A stretch of 64,000 bases of DNA, from NCBI RefSeq assembly GCF_003072625.1, contig NZ_CP027805.1, positions 1-64,000 on the forward strand. The letters are read 5' to 3'. Made by a program: the position numbers and the translations under genes. Numbering within the stretch: the first letter of the stretch is position 1; each line of letters begins with the position of its first letter. Shown here one piece after another: positions 26,766 through 43,663 of the stretch. The notes beneath the pieces were generated by a model. It was not told the origin of the DNA and did no database searches. It saw only the letters and a program-made list of their open reading frames with translations. This stretch comes from Limosilactobacillus reuteri (lineage in GTDB: Bacteria > Bacillota > Bacilli > Lactobacillales > Lactobacillaceae).

Positions 26766-26795
26766 GAACGTAATTCGTTTAGAGGAGTAAAGCAA

Positions 26796-26843
26796 ATGAG
26801 TTATCAAACTTTACAATTAAATCATAGTTGGCAAAGCCGGTAA
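26796..26843 (+). CDS. Tryptophan-type leader peptide (attenuator)
   Basis: A 15-codon ORF, MSYQTLQLNHSWQSR, behind the good ribosome site AGAGGAG (26781-26787). It has one Trp codon (26829-26831) near its end. It is followed by a hairpin, an intrinsic terminator and, past the intron, a second hairpin-plus-T-run and the trpX gene. This is the layout of ribosome-mediated attenuation: translation of the Trp codon would set which RNA fold forms. No T-box consensus is seen. The family is not known to me by name. Confidence 0.65.
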   Translation: MSYQTLQLNHSWQSR

Positions 26844-26859
26844 CTCGGGGATAGCTGTA

Positions 26860-26906
26860 GTACAGATATGACCTGGGTTTATTCGCAGATTATATCTGTA
26901 CCGGCT
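26860..26906 (+). promoter_or_regulatory. Leader RNA hairpin of the trpX attenuator
   Basis: GTACAGATAT (26860-26869) and ATATCTGTAC (26892-26901) pair perfectly. AGCCGGTA at the leader stop codon (26835-26842) is complementary to TACCGGCT (26899-26906), and TAAAGCA beside the leader start (26788-26794) is complementary to TGCTTTA (26906-26912). Ribosome position on the leader ORF would decide these pairings. Confidence 0.6.
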
Positions 26907-26924
26907 GCTTTATCATGTACAAAT

Positions 26925-26958
26925 AAGGGCCTGTACGGATTCCACGTACGGGCTTTTT
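26925..26958 (+). terminator. First terminator of the trpX attenuator
   Basis: GCCTGTACG (26929-26937) pairs with CGTACGGGC (26945-26953), extended by AAGG/TTTT, followed by TTTTT. The group II intron starts four bases downstream. Confidence 0.85.
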
Positions 26959-26961
26959 CTA

Positions 26962-28871
26962 GTGCGCCCGGCATGGGTATTAGCTAGGTGGTGAAAGTCC
27001 GCTATGGGCCGTAGTAGTCGGAACCATGAGCTGAGGACAAGGGTGTCCACCGTGAGGTGGAATCTGAAGGAAGTCTAAGGCAAAGTACTGCATCGATGAA
27101 CAAGAAGTAGCTATAAGGCTGAAATTAACTGGATAAGGCTGCTAGACAAGTTGAAGTCCAATACTACTCGAAATTGGTTTCAGTAAAGCTAACGATGACA
27201 TGGTACGAAAGCTAATATTCTTACCCGGGGAGATCTGGCCTACACGTTTCCGACAAGAGGAATAAGTTTAATTTCCACAGAAACAAGCGATGCAGTGATG
27301 CAGTGTTGAGTAAGCCAGAAGTCAGCCGAGGTCATAGTAGTTTGAATAATCGGATGAAGGACTGAACGACAATAACTTGTAACTTATATCGGAGGTGTAA
27401 TCAGGTGCGACAATCGCAGAAAACAGAACAACAAGCTGACCGCTTGTCGAGGATAGGTTTGGAAAACCGAAAGTACACAAGGGCGCGTAGTACCGGTTAT
27501 GGTGAAGGTAAAGGTATGAGTGTCACTATCCAAGACCTGGTCTTGGATCGCAATAACCTTAATCAGGCTTATTTGCGAGTTAAGAGAAATAAAGGAGCAG
27601 CAGGCGTTGATGATATGACAGTCAATGACCTTCTACCATATCTCAGAGAAAATAAGACGGAACTGATCGCTAGTTTGCGTGAGGGAAAGTATAAACCAGC
27701 TCCAGTCAAACGGGTAGAAATTCCGAAGCCTAATGGTGGAGTAAGAAGACTTGGAATACCAACGGTGGTGGACCGAATGGTTCAACAAGCTGTAGCCCAA
27801 ATTCTTACGCCTATCTTTGAGCGTGTTTTCTCTGATAATAGCCTTGGCTTCCGTCCCCACCGTGGGGCCCATGACGCTATTTCGAAAGTAGTAGATCTTT
27901 ATAATCAAGGTTATCGAAGAGTTGTCGACTTAGACCTAAAAGCCTATTTTGATAACGTTAATCATGACTTGATGATTAAGTATCTCCAACAATATATTGA
28001 TGACCCATGGACACTAAGACTCATTCGTAAGTTTCTAACTAGCGGAGTCTTAGACCATGGGCTTTTCGCTAAGAGTGAAAAAGGAACCCCACAAGGAGGG
28101 CCATTGTCACCACTACTGGCGAACATCTATCTAAATGAGTTGGACAAAGAGTTGACTAGACGTGGTCACCACTTTGTGCGCTATGCGGATGATTGTAACA
28201 TCTATGTTAAAAGTCAACGAGCCGGAGAACGAGTAATGCGAAGCATTACCCAGTTTCTAGAAAAGCGCTTGAAAGTTAAAGTGAACCCAGATAAAACCAA
28301 AGTCGGTAGCCCGCTACGGTTGAAGTTTCTTGGCTTTTCGTTGGGTGTAGACCACAATGGGGCCTACGCCCGTCCAGCTAAACAATCGCAACAACGAGTA
28401 AAGAAAGCACTGAAGTTATTAACTAAACGTAATCGTGGAATATCTCTGACAAGAATGTTTGAAGAAATTCATCGAAAAATGCGTGGGTGGCTTCAGTACT
28501 ACTCAATTGGGAAACTAACTAACTTTATTCAACGCCTTGACAAGTGGTTGAGGGTCCGAATAAGGCAGTATATTTGGAAGCAATGGAAAAAGTTTAAAAC
28601 TAAGGTAACTAACTTACAGAAGTTGGGGCTGTCCCAGCATGATGTATATGTCTTCGCTAGTACCCGAAAGGGCTACTGGCGAACTGCACATAGTAAGACC
28701 TTGAGCTATTCTCTAACTAATAGAAAACTGGAACAACTCGGACTTATGAATATGTCCAAGACGCTCCAGTCAATTCAATGTGATTAAGTTGTCGAACCGC
28801 CGTATACGGAACCGTACGTACGGTGGTGTGAGAGGTCGATAATTGAACTAATCAATTATCTCCTACTCGAT
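26962..28871 (+). mobile_element. Group II intron (class C type), copy 1
   Basis: The 1910-bp element begins GTGCGCCCGG and ends CCTACTCGAT, with domain V near 28795-28840 (GTATACGGAACCGTACGTAC core) and domain VI just after. Boundaries follow from alignment with the second copy at 60637. It carries a 460-residue maturase-reverse transcriptase without an endonuclease domain and lies directly 3' of a terminator, both traits of group IIC introns. Confidence 0.9.
27405..28787 (+). CDS. ltrA: Group II intron maturase/reverse transcriptase, copy 1
   Basis: This multifunctional protein aids intron splicing and copies the intron during retrohoming. The 460 residues hold reverse-transcriptase blocks with FRPHRGAHDAI near residue 148, GTPQGGPLSPLLANI near 225 and the catalytic box FVRYADDCN near 257. 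A maturase (GIIM/X) domain follows (RKMRGWLQYYSIGKLTNF near 360). There is no HNH endonuclease domain. GTG start behind CGGAGGTG. Compared with copy 2 it has changes at residues around 141-155 (NSLGF instead of NSFGF; ISKVV instead of IEKGV). Confidence 0.93.
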   Translation: MRQSQKTEQQADRLSRIGLENRKYTRARSTGYGEGKGMSVTIQDLVLDRNNLNQAYLRVKRNKGAAGVDDMTVNDLLPYLRENKTELIASLREGKYKPAPVKRVEIPKPNGGVRRLGIPTVVDRMVQQAVAQILTPIFERVFSDNSLGFRPHRGAHDAISKVVDLYNQGYRRVVDLDLKAYFDNVNHDLMIKYLQQYIDDPWTLRLIRKFLTSGVLDHGLFAKSEKGTPQGGPLSPLLANIYLNELDKELTRRGHHFVRYADDCNIYVKSQRAGERVMRSITQFLEKRLKVKVNPDKTKVGSPLRLKFLGFSLGVDHNGAYARPAKQSQQRVKKALKLLTKRNRGISLTRMFEEIHRKMRGWLQYYSIGKLTNFIQRLDKWLRVRIRQYIWKQWKKFKTKVTNLQKLGLSQHDVYVFASTRKGYWRTAHSKTLSYSLTNRKLEQLGLMNMSKTLQSIQCD

Positions 28872-28890
28872 TTTCACTGGATAAATAGTG

Positions 28891-28917
28891 GGAGTTCCGA
28901 AACGTGGAGCTCCTTTT
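28891..28917 (+). terminator. Second hairpin-terminator upstream of trpX
   Basis: GGAGTTCC (28891-28898) pairs with GGAGCTCC (one G-U pair) followed by TTTTT. It was next to the first terminator before the intron inserted and is the last barrier before trpX. Confidence 0.75.
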
Positions 28918-28940
28918 TATTTTGAAAGGTGGAGATAGGG

Positions 28941-29842
28941 ATGAAACGAATTATGGGCTATATTATTATTGGAATTGTTGTGATTGGTGGTTATTTTGGA
29001 CTTTTAAGGCTTCATCAACAGACTACAAAGCCAGTGGTAGGAATTTTAACAATGATGCATCATCCAGCATTAGATCAGATTCAAAAGGGAGTCGTTGCCG
29101 GATTAGCAGAAGAAGGATACCGAAACGGCAAGAATATCAAAATTGAATACCAGAATGCGAATGGTGATCAGGGAAACTTAAATACTATGGCGAATAAATT
29201 AGTGAATGATCATGCGAAAGTAATCGTTGGTATTACCACCCCAGCTTGCCAAGCACTTGCTAATGCGACCAAGGATATTCCAATTGTGATGGGCGGAATT
29301 GGTGATCCGGTTGGTGCCCCGGCTTAGTAAAGAATGAAAAACACCCAGAAGGAAACGTTACAGGGGTTCATAATGTAAATCCGAGTGAACAGCAGATTGC
29401 CTTAGTAAAGACATTTATACCAAACATAAAGACTCTGGGAGTAATCTACACATCGAGCGATACCTCTTCTGAAAGTCAGTATCGAACAATGTTGAGTAAA
29501 GTAGACGCGGTCATTGTTCCTAGTGACAATACAATTGCCGGATCAATGGGAGTATTGGTGAAAAATGCGGATGCGGTCAATAAGCCTGTTTTCCCTAGTG
29601 CTGATACAATGGTAAAAGATGGTGTAGTAGCTTCGATTAGTCTTAGCCAATACGGGCAAGGAAAAGCAGCTGGAAAAATGGTAGCACGTATTTTGAAAGG
29701 TGAAAAGCCAGGACAGATGGCAGTTAATAATTACCATCATGGAGAACCGGTTCTTAATTTAAAGCAGGCACGTAAGTTAGGAATAAAAGTTCCAGCAGAT
29801 TTTCAACGAGAAGCAGGACAACATGGAACAGTCTTTAAGTAA
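28941..29842 (+). pseudogene. trpX: Tryptophan ABC-transporter substrate-binding protein TrpX, broken
   Basis: ATG 28941 behind AAAGGTGGAG opens a frame with one helix (IMGYIIIGIVVIGGYFG) and the periplasmic-binding core VVGILTMMHHPALDQIQKGV. At GDPVGA (about 29315) a one-base loss shifts the frame to TAG 29325. The next frame continues from GLVKNEKHPEG, then residues expected between QYRTM and KVDAVIVPSDNT (about 30) are missing. The rest reaches 29842. The usual permease and ATPase partners are absent downstream. So tryptophan uptake by this system is lost. Confidence 0.85.
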
Positions 29843-29976
29843 GATAGTGGGAAAATTCCGAATAATAAGAAAAATTGAAGAAGATAACATTCGCTAGGTA
29901 ACATTCTGTTGTATACTTACCACAGATTGTGTTGTAAATCGTTAGAAATACGTTAAAATAATAATGTGAAATTGCT

Positions 29977-30288
29977 TGTGGATAAGTCAGTGGATAACTA
30001 ACAGTAAATTTAAAGTAATTTTATAAATGTTGGTATATCAATAAAATTTATTGTTCAAAACTTATCCACAAGTTGAATGTGTATTTGTGGATAAGTGGAA
30101 TTCTTTGTATAATTCCTGTAACAAAGCTTACGGGCCCATGGAATTACGGAATCATTACTGAACGATTGTTCCTGTAGATAACTGTGGATAATTAATTTTT
30201 AAGAAAACGCTTTTTTAACAAAAAATTAACCGAACATTCGGGAAAAGTAAAAAAATCTACACTGGCCTGTGGATAACTTTGTGGATAA
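29977..30288. other. Second DnaA-box cluster, upstream of rlmH
   Basis: Six perfect DnaA boxes: 29977-29985, 30062-30070 (reverse orientation), 30086-30094, 30183-30191, 30268-30276 and 30280-30288. One-mismatch boxes lie at 29989-29997 and 30173-30181. The cluster fills the 468 bases between trpX and rlmH. It is denser in perfect boxes than the dnaA-dnaN spacer. From memory, Bacillus subtilis also has a DnaA-box cluster at yydA (rlmH), so it may be a conserved DnaA-titration or regulatory site. Confidence 0.85.
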
Positions 30289-30310
30289 ACTGTGGAAGGT
30301 AGTGGATATC

Positions 30311-30790
30311 TTGAATATAAAAATTATTGGTGTGGGTAAGTTAAAAGAAAAGTATTTTAAAGCGGGAATTGCTGAATATGCTAAACGACTTGGACGTTAT
30401 TGTAAATTTGAAATTGTTGAGGTTCCTGATGAAAAAGCGCCTGAATCTTTAAGTCAAGCAGAAATGGATGAAGTAATGTCAAAGGAAGGGGAACAGATTC
30501 TTGATAAAATCAAAGATCGCGAATATGTGTATGCTTTAGCGATTAAAGGCAAAGAACGTTCTTCTGAAGAGTTTGCAAAAGAGATCAATAAATTAACAAC
30601 TTATGGTCACAGTGATATTACTTTTGTGATCGGAGGTTCGTTAGGCTTAAGTCCAGCAGTATTAAAACGGGCAGATGCTCAAATCTCGTTTGGACGTTTT
30701 ACCTTGCCTCATCAATTAATGCGTTTAGTTTTAAGCGAACAAATTTATCGTGCATTTACCATTATCAATGGTCTTCCATATCATAAATAA
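30311..30790 (+). CDS. rlmH: 23S rRNA (pseudouridine1915-N3)-methyltransferase RlmH
   Basis: SPOUT-class methyltransferase acting on 23S rRNA on the 70S ribosome. From TTG 30311 the product is 159 residues, the exact family length, starting (M)[18 protein letters not shown] and ending in the knot region [17 protein letters not shown] and [14 protein letters not shown]. An open frame extends back to GTG 30269, but that part is made of DnaA boxes and has no family match; AAGG (30297-30300) serves the TTG. Usual position downstream of htrA. Confidence 0.95.
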
Positions 30791-30933
30791 AGAATTTCTT
30801 GAGTTTTGTTTAGATTATTATTTATTGTCGTTAGCGATGGTATAGTAGTAAATATGAAGTGTAACGGCATAAGAATTAAAGGATTTGATTTAAGATAGGC
30901 ATACGAAGTTATCAAGTAATTCTTTTAGGGGTA

Positions 30934-31152
30934 ATGGCAGGAATATGCATTTTAGTGATGCAAGGAAAAGCAAGTGCAAGGATAGTGAATGAAGCACGGC
31001 TGACATTGCCTAATGAAAAAAGAATTGAGCATGATGAATTTGAACGTTACCAGTTTCGGGCAAAACAGTTACGAACTTGGTGGCAGTTTAAGCGACCGAA
31101 ATATAAAATTGGTTGGTCATTTTATCATAAGAAACGAGGATACTGGGATTAG
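30934..31152 (+). CDS. Hypothetical small, possibly secreted protein
   Basis: A 72-residue frame, not recognised. The N-terminus is hydrophobic (MAGICILVMQGKASA) and the remainder basic and rich in W, Y and K. The open frame continues upstream to 30889 with IRSYQVILLGV, which would complete a signal peptide with a KASA cleavage site, but no standard start codon is present there. Either ATG 30934 behind AGGGG is used, or the original start was lost by a frameshift. Confidence 0.4.
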   Translation: MAGICILVMQGKASARIVNEARLTLPNEKRIEHDEFERYQFRAKQLRTWWQFKRPKYKIGWSFYHKKRGYWD

Positions 31153-31225
31153 CTCAGATCCTTGTTTTTCTTTTAACTTTTCAAAAAAGCTATTAAAATG
31201 AAGATATTAAAAGGAGGCAATGATA

Positions 31226-31762
31226 ATGAAAAAAGTTGGGATTATTGTCGGCAGCGTTCGTCCAAATCGGCGGAGTATGCAAGTAGCGAATTGGTTAAAA
31301 GTTCAATTAAAGAAAAGTACAAAGGTGCAATTTGACATCATCGACCTAAAAGAAGTTAATTTACCAATGATGGATGAACCTAAAATTCCTTATTTGGGCT
31401 TATATGTTCACGAAAAAACGCGTAAATGGAGTGAGTTAGTACAAAACTATGATGGTTTTGTGTTTGTTTTTCCGCAATACAATTGGGGCTATCCAGCAGT
31501 TTTGAAAAATGCGATTGATTACTTAGGAAAAGAATGGCAAGGGAAGCCAGTTAGTTTAGTAACATTCGGTGGACATGGCGGCTCACAAGCACAAATTGCA
31601 ATGAAATTAGTCGTAACCGGCTTAAAGATGGCGGCTCTTCCTGTTGATTTACAAATTAACTTGCTGCCAGATGATTCAACTGCGACCGCTGATCGGAAGT
31701 TGAATACTTATAATACGCAAGCAGCGTTATTAAAGACTGCCTTTGAAAATGAATTAAGCTAG
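31226..31762 (+). CDS. NADPH-dependent FMN reductase-family protein
   Basis: Flavodoxin-like oxidoreductase of 178 residues. The FMN phosphate loop GSVRPNRRSMQVANW lies near residue 8, and VFPQYNWGYPAVLKNAIDYL near 80-100 is the family's second signature. Substrate is unknown; relatives reduce quinones, azo dyes or chromate. AAGGAGG lies 8 bases before ATG 31226; an ATG 6 bases earlier is too close to that site. Confidence 0.88.
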   Translation: MKKVGIIVGSVRPNRRSMQVANWLKVQLKKSTKVQFDIIDLKEVNLPMMDEPKIPYLGLYVHEKTRKWSELVQNYDGFVFVFPQYNWGYPAVLKNAIDYLGKEWQGKPVSLVTFGGHGGSQAQIAMKLVVTGLKMAALPVDLQINLLPDDSTATADRKLNTYNTQAALLKTAFENELS

Positions 31763-31924
31763 TTTGTGATTAAAGTGGCAAATTATTGTGGGACATTAAT
31801 ATAAAATTGGTTCAATTTGTGAATATTATGACAAACATCGTGATATTGTAGTAGATTAGGCAAGATTATTATTACAAATTGGGCGATAATGAACAAAAAA
31901 TAAAAATGTTTCTATTGCAAAAAT

Positions 31925-31937
31925 AAAACGCTTGCAT
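31925..31937 (+). promoter_or_regulatory. cre-like site ahead of the alcohol dehydrogenase
   Basis: AAAACGCTTGCAT resembles a catabolite-responsive element but has two mismatches to the WTGNAANCGNWNNCW consensus. Confidence 0.3.
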
Positions 31938-31980
31938 GATAATGGAATCGTATTCAAATGCCATGAGGAGGGTATTTTTA

Positions 31981-33153
31981 ATGAATAGACAATTTGATTT
32001 CTTAATGCCAAGTGTGAACTTCTTTGGTCCTGGTGTTATTGCTAAAATTGGTGATCGTGCAAAGATACTCAATATGCATAAACCATTGATTGTTACTACT
32101 GAAGGTTTATCCAAGATTGACAATGGCCCTGTAAAGCAAACCATTGCTTCATTGGAAAAGGCTGGCGTTGACTATGCCGTATTTACTGGCGCTGAACCTA
32201 ATCCTAAGATCCGGAACGTTCAAGCTGGTAAAAAGATGTACCAAGATGAGAACTGTGACTCAATCATCACTGTTGGTGGAGGTTCTGCTCACGACTGTGG
32301 TAAGGGTATCGGTATTGTTTTAACTAACGGTGATGATATTTCTAAGCTTGCCGGAATTGAAACATTGAAGAATCCACTTCCACCATTGATGGCTGTTAAC
32401 ACTACTGCCGGAACTGGTTCTGAATTAACTCGTCACGCTGTTATTACTAACGAAAAGACTCATTTGAAGTTTGTTGTTGTTTCATGGCGTAACATTCCAT
32501 TGGTATCATTCAACGATCCAATGTTGATGCTTGATATTCCAAAAGACATTACTGCTGCTACTGGTTGTGATGCTTTTGTTCAAGCTATTGAACCATACGT
32601 TTCTGTTGACCATAACCCAATTACTGATAGTCAATGTAAAGAGGCTATTCAATTAATTCAAACTGCTTTACCAGAAGTAGTTGCTAATGGTCACAATGTT
32701 GAAGCGCGGACTAAGATGGTTGAAGCTGAAATGCTTGCCGGCATGGCCTTTAACAATGCTAACTTAGGTTATGTTCACGCGATGGCTCACCAACTCGGTG
32801 GTCAATATGATGCTCCTCATGGTGTTTGCTGTGCCTTGCTCTTGACCACTGTTGAAGAATATAACTTAATCGCATGTCCAGAACGGTTTGCTGAATTAGC
32901 TAAGGTAATGGGCTTTGACACTACTGGTCTTACCCTTTACGAAGCAGCTCAAAAGTCAATTGACGGTATGCGTGAAATGTGCCGGCTTGTTGGTATTCCA
33001 TCATCAATCAAGGAAATTGGTGCTAAGCCAGAAGACTTTGAAATGATGGCCAAGAATGCCCTCAAGGATGGTAATGCCTTCTCTAACCCACGTAAGGGTA
33101 CTGTTGAAGATGTTGTAAAGCTTTACCAAAAGGCTTACGATGGTATTTACTAA
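31981..33153 (+). CDS. Iron-containing alcohol dehydrogenase (1,3-propanediol dehydrogenase-like)
   Basis: Reduces aldehydes such as 3-hydroxypropionaldehyde to alcohols with NAD(P)H. The 390-residue product is a type III alcohol dehydrogenase with the nucleotide loop GGGSAHDCGKG near residue 95 and metal-site histidines in AMAHQLGGQYDAPHGVCCA (about 262-280). The first metal block reads TGCDAFVQAIEPY, where most relatives have a His at the Gln position. GAGGAGGG supports ATG 31981. Codon use is biased toward highly expressed genes. In L. reuteri a gene of this kind takes part in 1,3-propanediol formation (recalled). Confidence 0.9.
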   Translation: MNRQFDFLMPSVNFFGPGVIAKIGDRAKILNMHKPLIVTTEGLSKIDNGPVKQTIASLEKAGVDYAVFTGAEPNPKIRNVQAGKKMYQDENCDSIITVGGGSAHDCGKGIGIVLTNGDDISKLAGIETLKNPLPPLMAVNTTAGTGSELTRHAVITNEKTHLKFVVVSWRNIPLVSFNDPMLMLDIPKDITAATGCDAFVQAIEPYVSVDHNPITDSQCKEAIQLIQTALPEVVANGHNVEARTKMVEAEMLAGMAFNNANLGYVHAMAHQLGGQYDAPHGVCCALLLTTVEEYNLIACPERFAELAKVMGFDTTGLTLYEAAQKSIDGMREMCRLVGIPSSIKEIGAKPEDFEMMAKNALKDGNAFSNPRKGTVEDVVKLYQKAYDGIY

Positions 33154-33178
33154 TAAGGTAAGTAAATAATTTAAAACG

Positions 33179-33222
33179 AAAAATCCATGGAAAGATTCAC
33201 CTAGATCTTTCCATGGATTTTT
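33179..33222. terminator. Bidirectional terminator between convergent genes
   Basis: A perfect 16-bp stem, AAATCCATGGAAAGAT / ATCTTTCCATGGATTT, around 8 nt, with A-run and T-run on either side. It serves the alcohol dehydrogenase (+) and the VOC gene (-). Confidence 0.92.
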
Positions 33223-33225
33223 TAC

Positions 33226-34002
33226 TCACTCTTTATCGGTTAGTTCAAAACGAATTTGTCCAAGTTGGAGTTTTTCAGGTTTCTTTGCGCCGTGAAAGAT
33301 AAGTTTAAATAATCTATTTTCAACGCCAGCCGTGAAGATAAGTTGCTTATTTCCAATATTGATTGTATAGGTATCACCCTCGCTAACTACTTCTGCTTGT
33401 AAGAGGGCTGACCATTGCTTAGCTGCTTCTTCTGGGTCGCTAACATTAAAGATAGCTTGTTTAACAAAGAGGTCGCCGGCTGGGTGGAATTTGATTAATC
33501 CCTGTTTCTTTAGGTCTTCGCGACGCTTATCATCATCTTCACTCCATTGAATAAAGAATGGGGCCGGCAAATGATTAACAAGTTCGTCATCGACATAGAA
33601 AATCTTCCATTGAATGAGTTTGCCAGCAGGATCAATCCGTTTTCCATCAGTAATATCACCGACATTAAGGCCCAGTCTCTTTAATCGCTGGTGGGTTTCT
33701 TCGATGTTATCAGTCCGAATAGCAATTGTTGTGATTCGCTGAATACCAGCAAAATAATCTTCAACAGCATCGTGAATTGCTGAGTTATTTTCATATGGAA
33801 ATGCCTTAGCTTTTTCCTTATTAACGACTGTTAAGAGTTCGATATAGTTAAGTCCAAAATAATCTAGTGCATTTTTGGTTCCCCAATATTCATGATGTCC
33901 ACCAGGGGTAAATGCTAGCCCTTTAGAGTTAAAATAATCAATTGCATCTTGCAGATTAGTTACATCGACCATTGTATGATCCCAATTTAACGTTTCTGTC
34001 AT
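33226..34002 (-). CDS. VOC (glyoxalase-like) family protein
   Basis: The 258-residue product starts MTETLNWDHTMVDVTNLQDA, the opening of the glyoxalase-like (Glyoxalase_3) family: HTMVDV with a metal-type His and GGHHEYWGTKNALDYFG near residue 35. Substrate unknown. ATG 34002 follows AAGGGTG; the start lies within 2 bases of the proC stop, so it was the second gene of a proC-VOC operon. The IS in proC may now be polar on it. Confidence 0.8.
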   Translation of the reverse strand: MTETLNWDHTMVDVTNLQDAIDYFNSKGLAFTPGGHHEYWGTKNALDYFGLNYIELLTVVNKEKAKAFPYENNSAIHDAVEDYFAGIQRITTIAIRTDNIEETHQRLKRLGLNVGDITDGKRIDPAGKLIQWKIFYVDDELVNHLPAPFFIQWSEDDDKRREDLKKQGLIKFHPAGDLFVKQAIFNVSDPEEAAKQWSALLQAEVVSEGDTYTINIGNKQLIFTAGVENRLFKLIFHGAKKPEKLQLGQIRFELTDKE

Positions 34003-34003
34003 T

Positions 34004-34400
34004 TTAATCACCCTTATTCTGTTTTCCTAATTCCTTTGTTCGTTTAACAGCAGCAAGGACAGCATTTTCGATTCCGGCTGAAAAAGAGCTTTTGTCTAAC
34101 TCGTGCTGAGCTGTGATACCCACTCCGCCAGCAGAATTATTAATATCAAGTAATTCGGCAGGGTGTTTACCACTTTGTTCTACAAATGCAGCGGCTGCGC
34201 GTAGATTCTCAAGAGCAAGTTTGTTTGCTTGTTGGCGAGGCATTCCGGCAAGCACGCCTGCGTTTGTAAAACTAATTAGAAAGTTATAGATATAGTTTGG
34301 TCCAGCCACGCCATATCCAGTAAATACATCTAGCAAGGATTCATCAATGTAATCGACTTTTCCAAAACTATTTAGAAAGTCTTCAATGACAGTTTGATTA
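34004..34400 (-). pseudogene. proC: proC, 3' part, cut by IS5-type element
   Basis: C-terminal part of pyrroline-5-carboxylate reductase, the last step of proline synthesis. It includes DVFTGYGVAGPNYIYNFL and the dimer helix segment with NSAGGVGITAQHELD, close to the family P-T-S-G-G-V-T-I-x-A-L-H region. It joins in frame with the part at 35254-35671: removing the IS and one TA copy gives a 270-residue frame. Confidence 0.9.
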
Positions 34401-36670: not shown

Positions 36671-36675
36671 TTTGG

Positions 36676-36719
36676 TTACTAAAAAGTGTCCGGTATTTTG
36701 TCCAGACACTTTTTAGTAA
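36676..36719 (+). terminator. Terminator after the truncated aldehyde dehydrogenase
   Basis: A perfect 15-bp stem TTACTAAAAAGTGTC / GACACTTTTTAGTAA around 14 nt. Confidence 0.85.
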
Positions 36720-36856
36720 AAATACTATGAAAGATGTAAAATATACTAATTGTTTGCGCTTTAGTATATAATGAATGAGCGTAATGAATATGTTTATTAA
36801 GTGATCATTCAGTATAGAAATATACTTAAAGATTTGGATATTATTGGAGTACTTTT

Positions 36857-38251
36857 ATGCAAAAACTATCTATTAAACAACTAATAATAATCACATTGTG
36901 CTTATTAGTGCTGGCGGTTGGCTGCATGACTATTCACCAGCGTCGTCATTTTAATAAGAACGTTAAGATTGATAATGTATCGGTTGGTGGATTGACTGCT
37001 AAGCAAGCATTAAAGAAGTTACAAGATAATCCACAATCGCCAAAAATTTATATTAACAATGAGTTAGTATTTACGGATAAGCAATCGGTAGCAAAGTTTA
37101 GTAGTGCTGACGAACAAAAAATTAAAAATGCATTACATAGTCAATATACTTTCTTCCCATCATCTAAGGCAAAGAATATTGCGATTAAGCCTCAAAATGT
37201 TAATCAAGATGAAGTATCAAAGATTGATCAAGCAGTCAGTCAAAAGGTAACAGAATTAAATAATGGTCGAAAAGCTCCTGCTGATGCTTACGCTGTATAC
37301 GAAAATGGCCGAGTACAAGTAAAACCAGCAGTTGGTGGTACTCAATACAGTTTAGATGGTTTGCATAATAAAGTTGAGAATGAGATTGCTGGTGGAACTG
37401 TTTACTTGAGGCCAGTATACAAAACTCCGCTTTCTGCAAATAGTAAAACTGTTCAGAATGAAAAAGCAAAGCTCGAAGAATTAGCAAAACGATCTGTAAC
37501 ATACCAAGTACAAAACAAAAAGTATCAATTAAATTGCGTTGAGATTATTACCAGAGCAACCTATCAAAATGGAAAATACCACTTTGACACTGGAGCAGCT
37601 GATTCAAAGATTGATGAAATTAATAATACCCAAGCAACTCTTGGCAAATCATTTGAATTCAAAACCCATGATGGATCAGTGATCAAAACAACAGATGCTG
37701 GCTCATATGGGTGGAAGATCAGTAAGAAACAAGCTGGAAAGACTCTTACGAATGCATTGGTTGCAAATAAGCAAACAGTAAACGCCAAAAATGATATCTA
37801 TGGTAAGGGATATAATCAGCATGGAACAGGTTATGAGACCACAACCAATAATGGCATCGGTAATACCTATGCCGAAGTTTCGCTAGCCGATCAACATGCA
37901 TGGTTCTATAAGGATGGTAAATGCGTTCTTAGTACTGACATTGTTAGTGGGACCAATAACAAAGATAATGAAACTCCTAAGGGTGTCTGGTATATCATGT
38001 ACCAGCAAACACCGTCTGTCCTTCGAGGCCTTAACGATGATGGTTCGAAATATGCAAGTAAGGTCCAATATTGGTCACCATTTACTGATAGTGGATGTGG
38101 ATTTCATGATGCAAGCTGGCGTCATGACTGGTCGAAACAAGCCTATCTCGCTAAAGGTGGCGGATCGCATGGATGTATCAATATGCATCCAGATGTTGCT
38201 GGTCAAGCCTTTCATGACTTACAGAAAAATGAGCCTGTAATTATCTACTAA
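36857..38251 (+). CDS. L,D-transpeptidase (YkuD domain) with peptidoglycan-binding-type region
   Basis: A 464-residue surface enzyme that forms 3-3 cross-links in peptidoglycan or attaches proteins. One N-terminal membrane helix (about residues 7-25), then a PG_binding_4-type middle part (NVSVGGLTAKQALKKLQ; GSYGWKISKKQAGKTL) and a C-terminal YkuD domain (YAEVSLADQHAWFYKDGK) with the catalytic motif SHGCINMHPD near residue 435. GGAGTAC ribosome site. Two tiny membrane ORFs follow closely. Confidence 0.92.
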   Translation: MQKLSIKQLIIITLCLLVLAVGCMTIHQRRHFNKNVKIDNVSVGGLTAKQALKKLQDNPQSPKIYINNELVFTDKQSVAKFSSADEQKIKNALHSQYTFFPSSKAKNIAIKPQNVNQDEVSKIDQAVSQKVTELNNGRKAPADAYAVYENGRVQVKPAVGGTQYSLDGLHNKVENEIAGGTVYLRPVYKTPLSANSKTVQNEKAKLEELAKRSVTYQVQNKKYQLNCVEIITRATYQNGKYHFDTGAADSKIDEINNTQATLGKSFEFKTHDGSVIKTTDAGSYGWKISKKQAGKTLTNALVANKQTVNAKNDIYGKGYNQHGTGYETTTNNGIGNTYAEVSLADQHAWFYKDGKCVLSTDIVSGTNNKDNETPKGVWYIMYQQTPSVLRGLNDDGSKYASKVQYWSPFTDSGCGFHDASWRHDWSKQAYLAKGGGSHGCINMHPDVAGQAFHDLQKNEPVIIY

Positions 38252-38264
38252 AGGAGAATTTATT

Positions 38265-38363
38265 ATGCGCCCAAGTGCTGAACGTTCAATAATGATTGCG
38301 GTTGGTTGTTTTATATTAACAATTATTATTTCATTCGCCTTGTCTGAGGGATGGATAAAGTAG
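38265..38363 (+). CDS. Tiny membrane peptide, 32 residues
   Basis: ATG 38265 behind AAAGGAG opens a 32-residue frame, MRPSAERS then a single hydrophobic helix (IMIAVGCFILTIIISFA) and LSEGWIK. Not recognised. It lies 13 bases after the transpeptidase stop and upstream of the decayed kinase. It could be a small membrane regulator or a remnant of a signal-peptide gene. Confidence 0.45.
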   Translation: MRPSAERSIMIAVGCFILTIIISFALSEGWIK

Positions 38364-38373
38364 GGATTTAACG

Positions 38374-38529
38374 ATGGACTTGGAAAAGAAGAAAAATTTG
38401 GTAATTATTAATCTATTTTATATTGGATTGATTTTGATTTACTGCATTTTACATGCAGGACCACTGAATTTAATGGTGTTTTTGGGTATGTTAGTGGTTG
38501 CAAATTTAATGGGGATGTTAATCAAATAA
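38374..38529 (+). CDS. Tiny membrane peptide, 51 residues
   Basis: ATG 38374 with AGGGAT seven bases upstream. Basic start MDLEKKKN and two hydrophobic stretches (VIINLFYIGLILIYCIL; LMVFLGMLVVANLMGML). Not recognised. It sits between the 32-residue peptide and the kinase, in the position where AgrD-type signals or accessory peptides are found, but it has no visible processing motif. Confidence 0.45.
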   Translation: MDLEKKKNLVIINLFYIGLILIYCILHAGPLNLMVFLGMLVVANLMGMLIK

Positions 38530-38540
38530 TGGGTTAGAAA

Positions 38541-39845
38541 ATGATTGATTTAACTTTACCACAAGCATTCGTTTCGGACTTTTTAAATGTTTTTGAACTA
38601 ATTATTATTTATAGGTTAGTGACGGGTTATTTGAGCAAGAAAATTATTTTAGTTGATTTCCTTGCAAGCTTAGTTATTATTTGCGTTCCTTTTCTAGAAG
38701 GTTCATTAGAGTTTCCATTAATAATGATATATTTATGGCTATTTGATAGGAAACATGATCGTCCGCAAATTATACATAATAATACTCTTGCTATGTGTAC
38801 AATAATTGTAATGATTTCACTTATTGATTTAGGTGATCATTATATGTATGAAATTTTTTTGGAAGATAGAAAGAATATTTCGTTATTAGGCTGGATATTA
38901 CCAATTACAGATCTTATCGTCACTATTATAGTAGGAATATTGGTAATACTTTTTATTGCTCCCAAAGTTCGTGAAGTTAGTATACAAATTTTGAATCCCG
39001 TTCCACTTTGGAAATTAGTCGGGGTATTCTTTATTTTATATTTTCTTCTTAATGTCGTTGCAGAAAAAGAAGGAATAGCAAATAATTATGCTCCATTACT
39101 TTTGCTAGTATTTTTAACGATTATTTTGATAGGTGGGAGTAGTTTATTTAGCATAATTAGAAGCTCTATTCAGATTTAGAATCAACAGCGGTTAATTGAT
39201 ACCTATAAGTTGCAAATTGCAAGTGCGCATGAAGTAAGTAAGCAATATGACCAAATTCAGCGTGAACGCCATGATACGCGTAACATGCTACTTAGTATTC
39301 AAGGATATATTCGTGATCATAAAGATAAGGAAGCGGCAGAATTATTATCAACATTTCTTCAAAATGATATAGCAGAAAAAGCATTATAATGAAATTGATA
39401 ATGCCCTAGATGAAATCAAAATCTCTGGCTTACATAATTAATCAAAGAAAGGGCTTATAAAATAGTAGAAAAGGGTATTCCATTTTCATTTGAAGTTAAT
39501 GCTGAGATCGACGAGTTGCCGGGTTCAGAAATAAAAACTGCTAGAATTATCGGAATTTTAATGGACAATGCAATTGAAGCAACCTTCAAACAAGCTAAAC
39601 CATATATTCAGTTTGCATTGCTTAAGCACACTCCGGAAGTTTATGAATTGGTAATTGCTAATTCGATTGAACAAAAACTTAATATTAATACTGCACTGAA
39701 ATTTGAGCATTCGACTAAAGAAGGGCATCAAGGAATTAGCCTTTCAAATGTGACCCAGTTGGTAGAAAATGATGACCATTATTCTTTTTCAGCGGAAGTT
39801 AAAGATAAGGTAATTATGATGACTTGTTTTATTCAGGGAAAGTGA
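38541..39845 (+). pseudogene. AgrC-type sensor histidine kinase, broken
   Basis: Six-helix membrane sensor (residues 1-212) ends at TAG 39177. The same frame continues with NQQRLIDTYKLQIASAHEV and the phosphoacceptor box QRERHDTRNMLLSIQGY, then stops at 39387. A shifted frame reads HYNEIDNALDEIKISGLHN. Another shift near 39440 opens the GHKL ATPase part ending at 39845 (GILMDNAIEATF; GHQGISLSNVTQL). One nonsense and two frameshift lesions. Quorum sensing of this type usually pairs such a kinase with a LytTR regulator, which follows. Confidence 0.88.
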
Positions 39846-39852
39846 GAATAAA

Positions 39853-40527
39853 ATGTTAAAAGTAATTATTTTAGAAAATGATGATTATCAAGCTGATTAT
39901 ATAGAGCGCCTAGTTTCTCAGCGAAAATTGATTAATCCAACTCCGCGTAGTTATGATATGAAAGTCTACTTACGAACGAGTGATCCCCAGGAGGTAATTA
40001 ACAAGATTACAGATGAGGAATATTTAGCGGTTTTAGATATTGAATTAGATAGTCAACTTAGTGGAATAGATGTTGCTGAGCAGATTCGAAAAAGGGCCGA
40101 ATTTGCCGAAATTATCTTTGTAACTGCTTATCAAGAATATTTACCTTATACTGTTTCGCGCCGAATAGAGCCTTTTGATTATATATCTAAAGGTGATAAA
40201 ATCGAATCTATTACTGACCGACTTCGGATGGATATTGATGAAGCATATGTTCGCTATCAAAATTATGTAAATGCTAATCCAAAACACCAAGAAAAATTTG
40301 CTTATGAACCAATCCATGGTGTAAAACGTCAAGTTAATTTTGCTGATCTTTATTATATTGAATCAGTTAAAAATGCTAATCGACGGCTACGAATTGTTGG
40401 AAAGAATATGCGGATTGAATATCATGGTGAACTAGGAAAAATAGTAGATGATCGGTTATTGCGAGTAAATCAAAGCACGTTGATTAATCCTTTATCCATA
40501 CAAAGATTTGATAAAAAGAAAGAATAA
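39853..40527 (+). CDS. LytTR-family response regulator, C-terminally truncated
   Basis: AgrA-like regulator with a receiver domain (LENDDYQADYIERL; Asp in LAVLDIELDSQLSG near residue 62) and a LytTR DNA-binding domain (VKRQVNFADLYYIESVK; LGKIVDDRLLRVNQSTLIN). 224 residues. It stops early at 40525: restoring one A in the A-run at 40511-40516 would extend the frame through IIYFDSNEVKVTVSYRK to TAG 40608. The lost strand is the end of the LytTR domain, so DNA binding is doubtful. The partner kinase is broken as well. Confidence 0.8.
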   Translation: MLKVIILENDDYQADYIERLVSQRKLINPTPRSYDMKVYLRTSDPQEVINKITDEEYLAVLDIELDSQLSGIDVAEQIRKRAEFAEIIFVTAYQEYLPYTVSRRIEPFDYISKGDKIESITDRLRMDIDEAYVRYQNYVNANPKHQEKFAYEPIHGVKRQVNFADLYYIESVKNANRRLRIVGKNMRIEYHGELGKIVDDRLLRVNQSTLINPLSIQRFDKKKE

Positions 40528-40608
40528 TATATTTTGATAGTAATGAAGTGAAAGTTACAGTAAGTTATCGGAAATTAAAGTTACTGACTAACTTTCTGGA
40601 AAATAAAT

Positions 40609-40652
40609 AGGAGTGTCTTAGGCTGTGATGCTTAGGATACTCCTATTTTAAT
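40609..40652 (+). terminator. Terminator after the response regulator
   Basis: AGGAGTGTC pairs with GATACTCCT (one G-U) with a further TTAG-based inner stem, followed by a T-rich tail. It starts at the ancestral stop codon. Confidence 0.8.
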
Positions 40653-40669
40653 TTTACAAACGGCGAAAG

Positions 40670-40708
40670 TAAATGGCTGGGAAGAATTTTTTCTCCTCAG
40701 CCATTTTT
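40670..40708 (-). terminator. Terminator of the OsmC gene
   Basis: On the minus strand AAATGGCTG pairs with CAGCCATTT, with an inner purine/pyrimidine stem. The T-run is weak. Confidence 0.55.
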
Positions 40709-40711
40709 CAA

Positions 40712-41140
40712 CTAATTAACTTTTATAAATCCATCTTGAACAAATTTCGTTCCGTAAGTCAGGGTGTTTTCCACAGGACATTTTGCAGCGACGTCAGCAA
40801 GAAATTTCTTAATATCCTCATCAGACTCGCTGCTGCGAAGGTGTGGTTGGTAACGGATCTCAGTAAACTTGCTGACATTTTTACCATCAGCGACGTCTTC
40901 ACGACTAAGATCACCCTCGATTGTTACCCAAAAAGCTCGTAAGTCAAAGTTGCGCTTTTTAGCTAAAGCCTGGGCAGTAATTGCTTGGCAGGCACCAAAT
41001 GACGTAAGGAGAATTTCTACTGGGTTCATCCCCGTATTTGTACTTTCAGGTTCATCAAAGGTAATTTCAAAACCACGGGTACCGGCTGAAACTTGCATCC
41101 CCGTTGTTGTCTTAGTTGCTGTTACTTTATATTTACTCAT
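40712..41140 (-). CDS. OsmC/Ohr-family protein
   Basis: Thiol peroxidase-fold protein of 142 residues, acting on organic peroxides in well-studied relatives. Two Cys positions fit the family: TSFGACQAITAQAL near residue 58 and AAKCPVENTLTYG near 122. The start MSKYKVTATK at ATG 41140 follows AAAGGAGGG on the minus strand; earlier in-frame codons lack a ribosome site. Confidence 0.88.
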   Translation of the reverse strand: MSKYKVTATKTTTGMQVSAGTRGFEITFDEPESTNTGMNPVEILLTSFGACQAITAQALAKKRNFDLRAFWVTIEGDLSREDVADGKNVSKFTEIRYQPHLRSSESDEDIKKFLADVAAKCPVENTLTYGTKFVQDGFIKVN

Positions 41141-41207
41141 AGCCGTGCCCTCCTTTAATACCCATAGTGTAGTCGAGGAAATACACTTGGTCAATGAGGG
41201 TGCTCAA

Positions 41208-42203
41208 TTATAAGGTGATTTCATGTGGTGATTTTTCGCCATTAAGGATTGTTATCACATCATCAAGTGAAATATCCACCATATTTTTGACCGCTAAATT
41301 AGTAAAGAAGGCAATGTGAGGCGTAAGAATGACGTTATCCATTTCGTGTAATTCTTTAACAAGGGGCTGATCATCAAGCCCTTTTTCTCGCCGATCTGTA
41401 GCTGCCACCGTTTCTTCACCTTCAAAAGTATCAAGAGCGGCAGCTGCAATTGTTCCCGTTTTTAGGGCCGCAACTAAATCAGCTGTATTGACGACTGGAC
41501 CGCGACTAGCATTAACCAAACCAGCAGTTGGTTTCATCATTGCAAAGTCGTTAGCAGTCAACAGCCCTTTGGAAGTTGGGTTTAAATCGACGTGGAGACT
41601 AACAACATCGGCTTGCTTTAGTAATTCTTCTTTAGAAACGAACTGGACAATTCCATCGAGGTCAGTGCGCGGATTCGTGTCATATCCTAGAACGGTAGCA
41701 CCTAATGTATGAAGAAGTTTTGCTAGGGTTCCGCCAATATGTCCAACGCCGATAATTCCAATGGTAGCAGTGTGAACTTCGGTTGATTGTTCATCGCTAA
41801 ACCAGCGGAAGTCATTTTCGGCGACTTGGTGATCAAAGCGGTAAGTTTTCCGAAGCAACCGAAAAATCTGCATTAATGCAAACTCGGCGACACTCCGCGG
41901 TGAATATGCTGGTACATTGGTCACGACTAGGTCATTTTCGTTAGCCTTTTTGATGTCGACCATGTCAAATCCAGCTGTCCGCGTTGCAATTTGTTTGAGC
42001 CCATTGGTATGGAGCTTTTCATAAATATCAGCCGGAACTTTACTGCGTTGCTGAATTACGAGTCCATCAACATCGGCAGTTAATTCAACAGCATCGTCAA
42101 TCAATTTCGGCGTTGTGATAATTTCGATATTATGTTCTTTTGCGTATTCATTAATGGCGGTTTGTTCATCGTCCCGCAAACTAGTCATTAAGATTTTTGT
42201 CAT
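41208..42203 (-). CDS. ldhD: D-2-hydroxyacid (D-lactate) dehydrogenase
   Basis: Reduces pyruvate (or another 2-oxoacid) to the D-hydroxyacid with NADH. The 331-residue product has the NAD-binding loop GIIGVGHIGGTLAKLL near residue 147, the catalytic Arg in VNASRGPVV near 235, Glu in DTFEGEE near 264 and His in LTPHIAFFT near 296. It lies 11 bases downstream of the broken aminotransferase and was probably in one operon with it. Which 2-oxoacid it prefers is not decided by sequence; with the aromatic leader it may act on aromatic 2-oxoacids. Confidence 0.9.
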   Translation of the reverse strand: MTKILMTSLRDDEQTAINEYAKEHNIEIITTPKLIDDAVELTADVDGLVIQQRSKVPADIYEKLHTNGLKQIATRTAGFDMVDIKKANENDLVVTNVPAYSPRSVAEFALMQIFRLLRKTYRFDHQVAENDFRWFSDEQSTEVHTATIGIIGVGHIGGTLAKLLHTLGATVLGYDTNPRTDLDGIVQFVSKEELLKQADVVSLHVDLNPTSKGLLTANDFAMMKPTAGLVNASRGPVVNTADLVAALKTGTIAAAALDTFEGEETVAATDRREKGLDDQPLVKELHEMDNVILTPHIAFFTNLAVKNMVDISLDDVITILNGEKSPHEITL

Positions 42204-42214
42204 GTTAATCCTCC

Positions 42215-43393
42215 TTACTTAATGAAGGCTGCAATGTTATCAAGAGCATCGGTTAGATTTTCCATACTGGTGGCGTAACTAATTCGAACATAACCCTGAC
42301 CGCCAGCACCAAAGAATGATCCAGGAATTACAGTGACTTTTCCTTCATTGGCAAGATCGGTCGCAAATTTAAGGTCATCGTTACCATACTGTTCAGGAAT
42401 CTTAGCAAAAACGTAGAAAGCCCCTTGAGGATTAATCAGCCGGAAACCTAATTTTTTGAGGCTGTTCACAATAAAGTCTCGCCGTTGCTCATAGGCTTCT
42501 TTCATTTCTTGAGTAGCTGTTTTTCCTTCGTTAGTGTCAAATGCGGCGACTGCAGCGGCCATTGCTGGATTAGAAGCAGCGGTCACTAACATCGCGTGAA
42601 TGGCACTGACCGATTTCGTCAATTCTTGCGGACCAGCGATAAAACCGATGCGGTAACCAGTCATTGCATGTGACTTTGAGGCACCATTTAAAATTAGCGT
42701 TTGTTCGGGGATGTAATTAGCGATTGAAGTATGAGTAGCTCCGTAAACAAATTCAGAGTAAATTTCATCGGCAATTACAATCAGATTAGTTGATTTAATC
42801 GTATCGGCTAATGCTTTAATTTGATCTTGGGTGTAAGTAACACCAGTTGGGTTGGAGGGTTAGTTAAGAACTAGTCCCTTGGCGTTAGGATGTTCTGCTA
42901 GTACGCTTTGGAGTCTTTCTGATGTGAGGACAAAACCATCGCTGCTTGTATCAACTTCAATCGGGATCCCACTAAGAATCTTTGTGACAGCCATGTAGAA
43001 GGGGAAAGTTGGGGTTGGAATGATAATTTCGTCGCCAGGATTAATAATAGTCGAAAGAGAAGCGAAAAATCCTTCTGTTGCGCCAACTGTAACAGCAATT
43101 TAGTTTTCTGGATCGTAGTCAAGCTGGTAACGATCTTGCATGAAGTGAGCGATTACTTGGCGGAGTGCGAAGGTCCCATTTCCCGCAGCATAGTGTGAAT
43201 CATTGGCATTGATGCTATCGATTGCGGCCTGCTTCATCGCGGCTGGCACATTAAAATCTGGTTCACCTAATGTTAGTTTAATGATGCCAGGGATTGAGTT
43301 TACCTGATAATCAAATTCGCGGATTCCACCAGGAGTGAGTTTAGCGAAATTATTGTTAAGACGACTAAGGATTTCTTCTTTAGTAGCTGGCAT
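42215..43393 (-). pseudogene. Aminotransferase (aromatic/AraT-PatA type) with two in-frame stops
   Basis: A PLP-dependent class I aminotransferase reading in one frame over 393 codons, interrupted by TAA at 43100-43102 and TAA at 42860-42862. Parts are MPATKEEILSRLNNNFAK, LGEPDFNVP, the PSNPTG motif right after the second stop, ADEIYSEFVY, and the Lys-bearing LNGASKSHAMTGYRIG. No frameshift is present. The stops sit where a Lys-type (AAA) and a Tyr-type (TAC/TAT) codon would be expected. Start at ATG 43393 behind AGGAGG. Confidence 0.88.
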
Positions 43394-43429
43394 GATAAAT
43401 TCCTCCTATATAAATATGTAGATTTAGAA

Positions 43430-43474
43430 ATAAAAGAAGCCCTGAATGCTATAGAAATAACATCCAAGGCTTCT
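43430..43474 (-). terminator. Terminator (attenuator) before the aminotransferase
   Basis: On the minus strand AGAAGCCTTGGATG pairs with CATTCAGGGCTTCT (two mismatches) and is followed by TTTT. It ends 37 bases before the gene start, as an attenuator would. Confidence 0.8.
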
Positions 43475-43507
43475 TGATCAGATTGGAATGAGTATAAAAG
43501 AGGCTCT

Positions 43508-43528
43508 CGGATGTTTGGGGGTCATCCG
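43508..43528 (-). promoter_or_regulatory. Upstream hairpin of the aromatic leader
   Basis: CGGATG and CATCCG pair around 9 nt; AGAGCCTCTTTT follows on the minus strand. It forms the first of two tandem hairpins after the leader ORF. Confidence 0.5.
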
Positions 43529-43558
43529 GGAACATCACAATGATAAAATCACTGCTGG

Positions 43559-43630
43559 TTAGCGGACCGTAATCGCGCTAAACCAGAAGACATACGCTTG
43601 ATTCAAGTGAATTGTCGCGGTAATCATCAT
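43559..43630 (-). CDS. Aromatic leader peptide (attenuator)
   Basis: A 23-codon ORF on the minus strand behind the strong site AAAAGGAGGACA. The peptide begins MMITATIHLNQA and continues YVFWFSAITVR: Tyr, Phe, Trp and Phe codons lie within five positions. The stop region forms a stem with the Trp-Phe codons (GGTTTAGCG / CGCTAACC), and the start region (43626-43634) is complementary over 9 bp to 43536-43544. With the terminator downstream, it fits translation-controlled attenuation of an aromatic aminotransferase operon. Confidence 0.7.
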   Translation of the reverse strand: MMITATIHLNQAYVFWFSAITVR

Positions 43631-43663
43631 TGTGTCCTCCTTTTGATTAACTGATTATTAATA

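Follow-up and report, generated by a model that had tools for sequence, protein, structure and literature searches.

Two putative leader-peptide attenuators of separate families in Limosilactobacillus reuteri, one of them joined to the trpB motif

Introduction

Do two leaders that stand before amino-acid genes on opposite strands of one Limosilactobacillus reuteri contig belong to a single family of attenuators, and how would they act? Both lie in the window analysed here, the first 64,000 nucleotides of NZ_CP027805.1 (assembly GCF_003072625.1): leader 1 on the plus strand ahead of a trpX-like gene and leader 2 on the minus strand ahead of an aminotransferase gene. A preliminary description, made from the sequence alone, had taken them for one undescribed architecture built around a short upstream open reading frame (uORF). 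With a probability that we put at about 0.87, the two leaders attenuate transcription through a ribosome that translates the uORF, and they represent two separate families. The first of these includes an RNA already present in Rfam, the trpB motif (RF04312), which is most likely a codon-programmable leader-peptide attenuator.

In the treatment of strong candidates by Narunsky et al. 2024 (PMC11109978), the trpB motif has more than 900 members in Firmicutes and Fusobacteria and ranks as a strong candidate riboswitch, strongly co-varying and with its antiterminator placed in the right P1 shoulder; a classic attenuator is left possible by the authors, and a uORF is not mentioned in that treatment. 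A search of the literature on Trp, aromatic and Lactobacillus leader peptides, with subscription journals mostly outside its coverage, found neither of the two uORFs reported in a title or abstract.

Results

Leader 1 and the trpB motif

Judged by its sequence, leader 1 is an upstream half with a uORF, joined to RF04312. The uORF, MSYQTLQLNHSWQSR*, has 15 codons (26796–26843, plus strand), of which the Trp codon (UGG) occupies 26829–26831, and is preceded by the Shine–Dalgarno sequence GAGGAG (26782–26787); WQS-type endings are seen in relatives. Beginning 15 bases 3′ of the uORF, a full-length RF04312 match covers the P1 hairpin and the terminator (26859–26965; 86.6 bits, gathering score 59, E 3.9e-11). 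The strand GUAAAGCA (26787–26794), in the region of the ribosome-binding site (RBS) and start codon, is complementary to 26906–26913 and would form an outer stem; this region co-varies in the family. The end of the uORF, AGCCGGUA (26835–26842), has the P1 shoulder at 26899–26906 as its partner, and in leader 1 this pairing is the base of a long interrupted stem. The 3′ arm of P1 together with the shoulder, AUCUGUACCGGCU (26894–26906), is the candidate antiterminator strand, with the 5′ arm region of the terminator (26928–26940) as alternative partner. The pairings of the uORF end and of the antiterminator strand were assigned by the own-versus-swapped test described below.

RF04312 was searched for in genome samples that overlap and that, except for the distant-family sample, all include this genome. 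Matches were found in 42 of 50 genomes of the genus at E 0.01 (12 over the gathering score), in 63 of 251 genomes of the family sample at E 1e-4 (9 over), in 150 of 345 genomes of the order sample among the matches listed (55 over), in 3 of 398 genomes of the phylum sample (2 over) and, at E 1e-3, in 44 of 194 genomes from the family of one distant match (0 over). We examined 171 loci (numbered with L below), 46 of them over the gathering score: all 69 genus matches, all 53 non-genus matches listed in the family sample, the best 28 new ones among the order-sample matches listed, and 19 new ones of the 65 distant-family matches.

A uORF was accepted when it had a Shine–Dalgarno sequence and 8–40 codons, ended at most 40 bases upstream of the motif and had, close to the end, either Trp or consecutive Trp/Phe/Tyr/His/Leu residues. 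Such a uORF is present at 155 of 170 RF04312 loci, as against 2–7 of 168–170 at five offsets further upstream and 8 of 171 on the antisense strand. Split by score, it is found at 46 of 46 loci over the gathering score and at 110 of 125 under it; this count adds L012, which passes and which lies too near a contig end for the count of 170. The 15 failing loci comprise L016 and L107, which are decayed leaders beside trpX remnants, five weak matches (L118, L120–L123), seven loci with a poor Shine–Dalgarno sequence, and L251, whose Phe codons escape the criterion. L124 and L125, also weak matches, pass, probably by chance. An RBS-preceded uORF with regulatory codons just upstream of the switching stems was found in the leader 1 family. 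At L016 and L107 we noticed that the RF04312 remnants have a decayed or missing uORF and that the adjacent trpX remnants lack a long open frame.

Codons and the downstream genes

To call the genes behind the 171 loci, 12 reference proteins were compared by tblastn with 1.5 kb of sequence downstream of each; the gene names rest on representatives checked with NCBIfam or Pfam. The TrpB representative scored 615 against an NCBIfam cut-off of 392, and the cut-off was also passed by HisS in three representatives, SNF in three and the BrnQ-like protein in one. TrpE was named by two Pfam domains, with SBP_bac_5, AA_permease_2 and transketolase likewise assigned by Pfam; for the HisZ representative the best NCBIfam match stays below its cut-off (218 versus 271.65).

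The codons in the uORF match the gene downstream. Behind 140 loci with Trp-class uORFs lie 114 TrpX, 10 TrpB and 1 TrpE genes; the remainder are 7 membrane proteins, 1 peptide-binding protein and 7 cases of something else. The last group includes L124, L125 and leader 1 of the window, which has no TrpX match within 1.5 kb because a group II intron intervenes. His-class uORFs (5 loci) precede 3 HisS, 1 HisZ and 1 amino-acid permease, and Phe/Tyr-class uORFs (18 loci) precede 11 SNF (Na-dependent) transporters, 3 BrnQ-like proteins, 2 transketolases, 1 TrpX-like protein and 1 other gene. Two loci fell into the Leu class: L260 before an SNF transporter, and L016, the decayed Trp leader, which is wrongly classed there. 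Six of the 171 loci have no codon class. In L179 a Tyr-rich uORF (SYYYGYFG) stands ahead of a TrpX-like protein (307.9 against the TrpX cut-off of 390), predicted to be a Tyr importer.

A scan of 84,980 genomes for three His codons plus the shoulder, a pattern which itself demands the His codons, gave four loci: one in Clostridium tetanomorphum, two in further Clostridium records and one in an assembly of Ilyobacter polytropus, a fusobacterium. The C. tetanomorphum locus is the same leader as L250, and since this leader belongs to the distant family, that family is Clostridium. Beyond what the pattern asked for, the surrounding uORFs contain 3, 5, 5 and 6 His codons, and the first gene is HisZ-like in all four (in L271 by the best NCBIfam match, which is below cut-off, in the others by resemblance). 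Their RF04312 matches reach 41–58 bits, all below the gathering score; L271 also weakly matches the enterobacterial His_leader model (E 0.22).

Co-varying pairings in the leader 1 family

Pairing was assessed by scoring the strands of each locus against each other and against strands exchanged between loci, with 5000 permutations, which tells which ends belong together and not the exact partner bases. Of 124 RF04312 loci 116 were kept; L107, L118 and L120–L125 had no chosen uORF and were left out, yet they were kept in the uORF counts. The uORF end goes with the P1 shoulder (own 19.5 versus swapped 17.3, n=100, z 9.0), the start region of the uORF with the post segment, which lies behind the shoulder (17.4 versus 13.4, n=105, z 16.0), and the P1 3′ arm plus shoulder with the terminator 5′ arm (23.4 versus 19.4, n=94, z 10.6), each difference being reached by 0 of 5000 permutations. 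Controls (reversed strands, loop, post-terminator sequence, mismatched segments) gave z from −2.2 to 0.7, except for the reversed post segment with z 3.6. Crossed combinations score too (uORF end with post, z 5.7; start with shoulder, z 15.5), because the shoulder and post windows overlap. Among further loci (43–45 of 47) the uORF end and shoulder reach z 7.1 and the start and post z 4.4, with reversed controls at 1.2 and 0.0, and in these loci it is often the codons that pair with the shoulder, for example CCAUCACCAU with AUGGUGAUGG. In the leader 1 family, then, mutually exclusive terminator and antiterminator structures occur with covariation. The own-versus-swapped test replaced an earlier test by shuffling, made on the one best helix of each locus, in which 43 of 124 loci stood at no more than 5 of 100 shuffles; that few loci passed is partly due to the best helix being alternately the uORF-end and the start pairing.

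These results bear on the published interpretation of the trpB motif. A riboswitch that binds an amino acid or a related ligand directly, with the uORF incidental, is what the strong covariation and the antiterminator shoulder suggested in the strong-candidate treatment of PMC11109978. We consider it very unlikely, given a uORF at 155 of 170 loci, codons that change with the gene (Trp, Phe/Tyr, His, Leu) and a shoulder that changes with the codons; a single aptamer would be unexpected before trp, his and Phe/Tyr genes alike.

Leader 2 and its relatives

Leader 2 (minus strand) has a uORF of 23 codons, MMITATIHLNQAYVFWFSAITVR* (43559–43630), with the Trp codon at 43585–43583, and a start-region strand CACAAUGAU (43626–43634) complementary to 43544–43536. 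Strand A (43576–43586) contains the Trp-Phe-Ser codons and pairs with 43564–43555 of strand B (43555–43567), for which A and C are alternative partners. Strand C (43523–43533) is the 5′ arm of the second hairpin, and strand D (43503–43515) is its 3′ arm plus flank, with E as alternative partner. The intrinsic terminator (43434–43475) consists of E (43475–43457) and F (43452–43434). A linker, ACUCAUUCC (43485–43493), is invariant in the 22 sequences of alignment A1. In leader 2 no Rfam family was reached, the highest-ranking match having E 0.16 and 23 bits where the gathering score is 87.7. T-boxes were absent from both leaders in a search of Rfam at E up to 10.

Leader 2 is conserved at the DNA level in 25 of the 50 genomes of the genus, with this one among the 25. 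Among 30 aminotransferase loci, taken from the higher-scoring matches, L039, L055 (at a contig end) and L061 have no leader 2 uORF in the sequence available. In the other 27 uORFs, with that of the window counted, the aromatic run ends in Trp-Phe, as AY.FWFS in 21, and the six strands are common. LN occurs in 10 of the 27 and Arg is the last residue in 11; in 8 of the 16 without final Arg translation of this stretch continues to SASQQ or SANQQ. Own-versus-swapped tests gave z 4.4 for A:B (1 of 5000 permutations), 4.8 for B:C and 7.4 for D:E, with reversed controls at 2.1, 0.2 and −1.7; for C:D z is 5.7, a value biased by the choice of this pair as each locus's best hairpin. In an alignment of 19 sequences A:B is paired in 94.7% of cells and C:D in 80.3%, and the covariation score was reached by 0 of 500 shuffles. 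A, B and C have changed together in L060, L062 and L063 (B is CCUAGAA or CCUAGAG, C is UUCUAGG). Six strands that pair as A:B, C:D and E:F or as B:C and D:E, with covariation, were thus found in the leader 2 family. The ACUCAUUCC linker gave z 3.1 with the start region (12 of 5000 permutations); as partner of the 5′ untranslated region it gave z 1.7 and was not accepted.

A first structure model of the family, R1, had only 8 pairs and was superseded by R2, built with a stated structure, which matches 9 of 251 family genomes at E 0.01. One match (L190) is from another genus, before apparently the same aminotransferase, and two (L189, L191) are weak and lack a YYFWFFR-type uORF. The remaining observations concern leaders before other genes. 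Among the R2 matches are also L187 and L188, where uORFs ending in VYYFWFFR or KYYFWFFR precede a PTS_EIIC_2-like membrane protein, for whose family a link to aromatic compounds is possible. The ACUCAUUCC linker with a similar preceding hairpin occurs in a leader that has no aromatic uORF (L192, L198, L199, L219) and stands before a weakly OsmC-like gene (NCBIfam 47 bits, below the cut-off of 95).

One family or two

Leaders 1 and 2 are two separate families. RF04312 does not match leader 2 at E up to 10 (in its own genome at E up to 1), nor, at E up to 0.5, any of 20 leader 2 loci. In the reverse direction, leader 2 is the only match of R2 in this genome at E up to 5, and among 100 RF04312 loci R2 matched no leader, its two matches there (E 0.67 and 1.7) being off target. 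On these cross-searches we rejected a single covariance family that would hold both leaders. Their switching schemes are unlike, too: leader 1 has a single P1, with its 3′ side as antiterminator strand, and in leader 2 A:B, C:D and E:F alternate with B:C and D:E. It is very unlikely that the two are a single family too diverged for the models. Their parts do come in one order: a uORF, a stem at the aromatic codons, a stem of the start region, a second hairpin and a terminator. This order is real, with common descent not established by it. L177 and L178 (RF04312 at 44 bits, under cut-off) share the Trp-Phe-Ser codons and the GGUUUAGC strand with leader 2, but this sharing is explained by the identical codons, and neither the missing cross-matches nor the different antiterminator topology fits one family.

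The claim of one leader architecture thus fell, and much of what the preliminary description had said about the parts held. In MSYQTLQLNHSWQSR and MMITATIHLNQAYVFWFSAITVR alike there is LN, Trp towards the end and Arg as the last residue. Both leaders have a stem at the Trp/stop region (26835–26842:26899–26906 and 43586–43576:43564–43555) and, before the gene, further hairpins that include an intrinsic terminator. Complementarity between the start and a segment 60–70 nt past the uORF is correct for leader 1 (26787–26794:26906–26913, 63–70 nt); in leader 2 the distance is only 15–23 nt (43634–43626:43544–43536). That the leader start is itself part of a switchable stem agrees with the relatives of leader 1 (z 16, 0 of 5000); in leader 2 the pairs are present and fail the swap test. 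The genes behind the leaders, for TrpX and an aminotransferase, are in keeping with amino-acid metabolism, and both are broken in the window. As to novelty, nothing was found for leader 2 in Rfam or in the literature searched, while the 3′ half of leader 1 had been published in 2024 as the trpB motif, with no uORF in the treatment cited (PMC11109978). An exclusively aromatic context, as expected earlier, fails for RF04312, which is His-coded before hisS and hisZ and in one case Leu-coded before a transporter; these non-aromatic matches are not randomly scattered, their codons changing with the gene. Both leaders do look like uORF attenuators beside amino-acid genes, as had been proposed.

Surroundings in the window

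The trpX-like gene for an ABC (ATP-binding cassette) substrate-binding protein (28929–29842, plus strand) sits beyond the group II intron and, compared with an intact relative, is broken by a frame change into open reading frames (ORFs) 28929–29327 and 29489–29842; NCBIfam NF041285 identifies that relative (L006) as TrpX (score 429.8, cut-off 390). The intron (27046–28871, plus strand, by Rfam domain matches, with a reverse transcriptase ORF at 27405–28787) starts a few bases 3′ of the U-run of the leader 1 terminator; its 5′ end probably lies near 26962, judging from a GUGCG start, which we take to be the consensus. Near-identical introns lie at about 26962–28871 and about 60637–62546 (98% over the first 300 nt compared). 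A terminator hairpin with its U-run ends a few bases before each of them, and the first intron splits leader 1 from its gene. A second RF04312 match of this genome (L002, genome position 1892377–1892472; 48.4 bits, under cut-off) has the uORF MNVYQTINVNTRWQSR and stands ahead of an open TrpX-like gene.

Behind leader 2, the gene for a class I PLP (pyridoxal phosphate) aminotransferase (42215–43393, minus strand) has an in-frame stop near 43100, leaving ORF pieces 43393–43100 and 42664–42215, and adjoins a D-2-hydroxyacid dehydrogenase gene (41208–42203, minus strand). No NCBIfam model was over cut-off for the 366-residue piece of the aminotransferase that was tested; the codons of the leader 2 uORF suggest that the enzyme acts on aromatic substrates. 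Note that trpX (28929–29842) and the aminotransferase gene (42215–43393) are both broken in this genome and that their leaders look intact. Elsewhere in the window two tRNA genes on the minus strand (17073–17145 and 18954–19026), about 1.9 kb apart, have equal Rfam scores.

Discussion

The attenuator interpretation of RF04312 rests on the presence of the uORF, on codons that follow the gene and on alternative pairings that co-vary. It is the comparison between genomes that shows the uORFs, the codon choice, the gene context and the co-varying pairings; ribosome stalling, the direction of the response, the co-transcriptional order and the toehold step are what we infer. With ample charged tRNA-Trp, the ribosome would finish the uORF of leader 1 and leave, whereupon the uORF end, and the RBS by way of the outer stem, would pair with the shoulder region, which locks P1 and lets the terminator form. 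Under Trp shortage the ribosome would stall on the UGG codon and cover the uORF end AGCCGGUA; the freed shoulder could then pair with the terminator 5′ arm and invade the terminator, and transcription would enter trpX. Apparently the same scaffold serves in other bacteria with Phe/Tyr, His or Leu codons before matching genes. In leader 2, stalling on the Tyr/Phe/Trp codons would cover A and leave B to pair with C, and D, freed in turn, would pair with E and block the terminator E:F. The aminotransferase operon would thus be read when aromatic amino acids are short.

A bolder version of this proposal has, in our estimate, an even chance of being right. RF04312 would be one homologous scaffold of Lactobacillales, Clostridium and Fusobacteria, retargeted between Trp, Phe/Tyr, His and Leu by joint change of codons and shoulder; the outer RBS stem would prevent the uORF from being translated again, leaving the decision to a single ribosome, and even to one Trp codon, by way of a toehold in the P1 shoulder. 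The odds of a re-programmable scaffold are held down by the fact that nearly all codon-swapped members are under the gathering cut-off.

Several results weigh against attenuation as proposed here. In equilibrium folding of the whole leader (115 loci), the probability of the terminator is 0.95 in the free state, at the Trp stall and at the stop alike; such folding is uninformative on switching, because the full terminator wins in nearly every locus. When the transcript is ended after the terminator 5′ arm, the Trp stall lifts the antiterminator from 0.12 to only 0.23 on average, with changes above 0.1 upwards in 25 of 115 loci and downwards in 2, and in leader 1 of the window it hardly rises (0.05 to 0.07). 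Among the 27 leader 2 loci the stall raises B:C by more than 0.1 in 13 and D:E in 4, none falling, and leader 2 of the window shows D:E in every state, ribosome-free included. The direction of these modelled changes fits a switch; the size of the effect is no proof. Leader 1 carries a single Trp codon, and the start:linker pairs of leader 2, present in most relatives, fail the swap test (z 0.9; reversed control 2.2). It is important to note that the uORF criterion was fixed only after the pattern had been seen, and that most RF04312 matches are under the gathering score. The codon-swapped members other than the His-type L130 (62.2 bits, over the gathering score) rest on sub-threshold matches: L128, L177–L179 and all distant-family loci are under the gathering score and match at E 1e-3 or better per genome.

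Very improbable, too, is that the uORF is a TnaC-like arrest peptide which senses free tryptophan at the stop and turns genes on at high Trp: the WQSR* ending of many members, with Arg before the stop, could suggest an arrest motif, but we rejected this since the endings vary (WQSW, WQGQ, WQNWRR, HHHR, SYYR) and are tied to RNA pairing, other RF04312 members carry His or Phe runs, and the targets (uptake, biosynthesis, HisS) fit need rather than breakdown.

Among known systems, trpL of E. coli has a uORF with Trp, alternative stems and a terminator, as leader 1 does. In contrast to trpL, the leader 1 family often has one Trp codon and mostly guards a transporter, its terminated state would be a long interrupted stem that includes the RBS of the uORF, and its scaffold seems to be reused for other amino acids. 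The leader of the enterobacterial his operon is a six-strand attenuator, and leader 2 has the same scheme of A:B, C:D and E:F against B:C and D:E; it differs in its Tyr/Phe/Trp codons, its aminotransferase gene and the missing Rfam match. The trpB motif RF04312 (SRC-39-1) itself is the same element as P1 and terminator of leader 1, a full-length match over the gathering score; the difference is that the strong-candidate treatment in PMC11109978 presents it without a uORF and files it as a riboswitch candidate, with a classic attenuator left open. His leader peptides have been reported from the Bacillus cereus group, Peptostreptococcaceae and Erysipelotrichales (PMC9413887, PMC2965389). They likewise have His runs before his genes, whereas the parts of these articles that we cite draw no link to RF04312, and the Clostridium and Ilyobacter loci are outside the groups named there. 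Trp T-boxes are described before trpX in Streptococcus suis (PMC9382623) and for an ABC system in L. plantarum (PMC2494555). The kind of gene and the signal are the same; a T-box reads the tRNA directly, whereas leader 1 would use a uORF.

If the proposed mechanism is true, a riboswitch candidate of which more than 900 members are reported would cease to be an orphan, its signal being the charging of the tRNA that is named by the uORF codons. The substrates of unnamed transporters would then be readable from the codons of their leaders, for example Tyr for the TrpX-like protein of L179, Phe or Tyr for the SNF transporters and His for the permease of L130. Leader-peptide attenuation would also stand beside T-boxes before Trp and aromatic genes in many Lactobacillales, bacteria whose Trp metabolites matter to their hosts.

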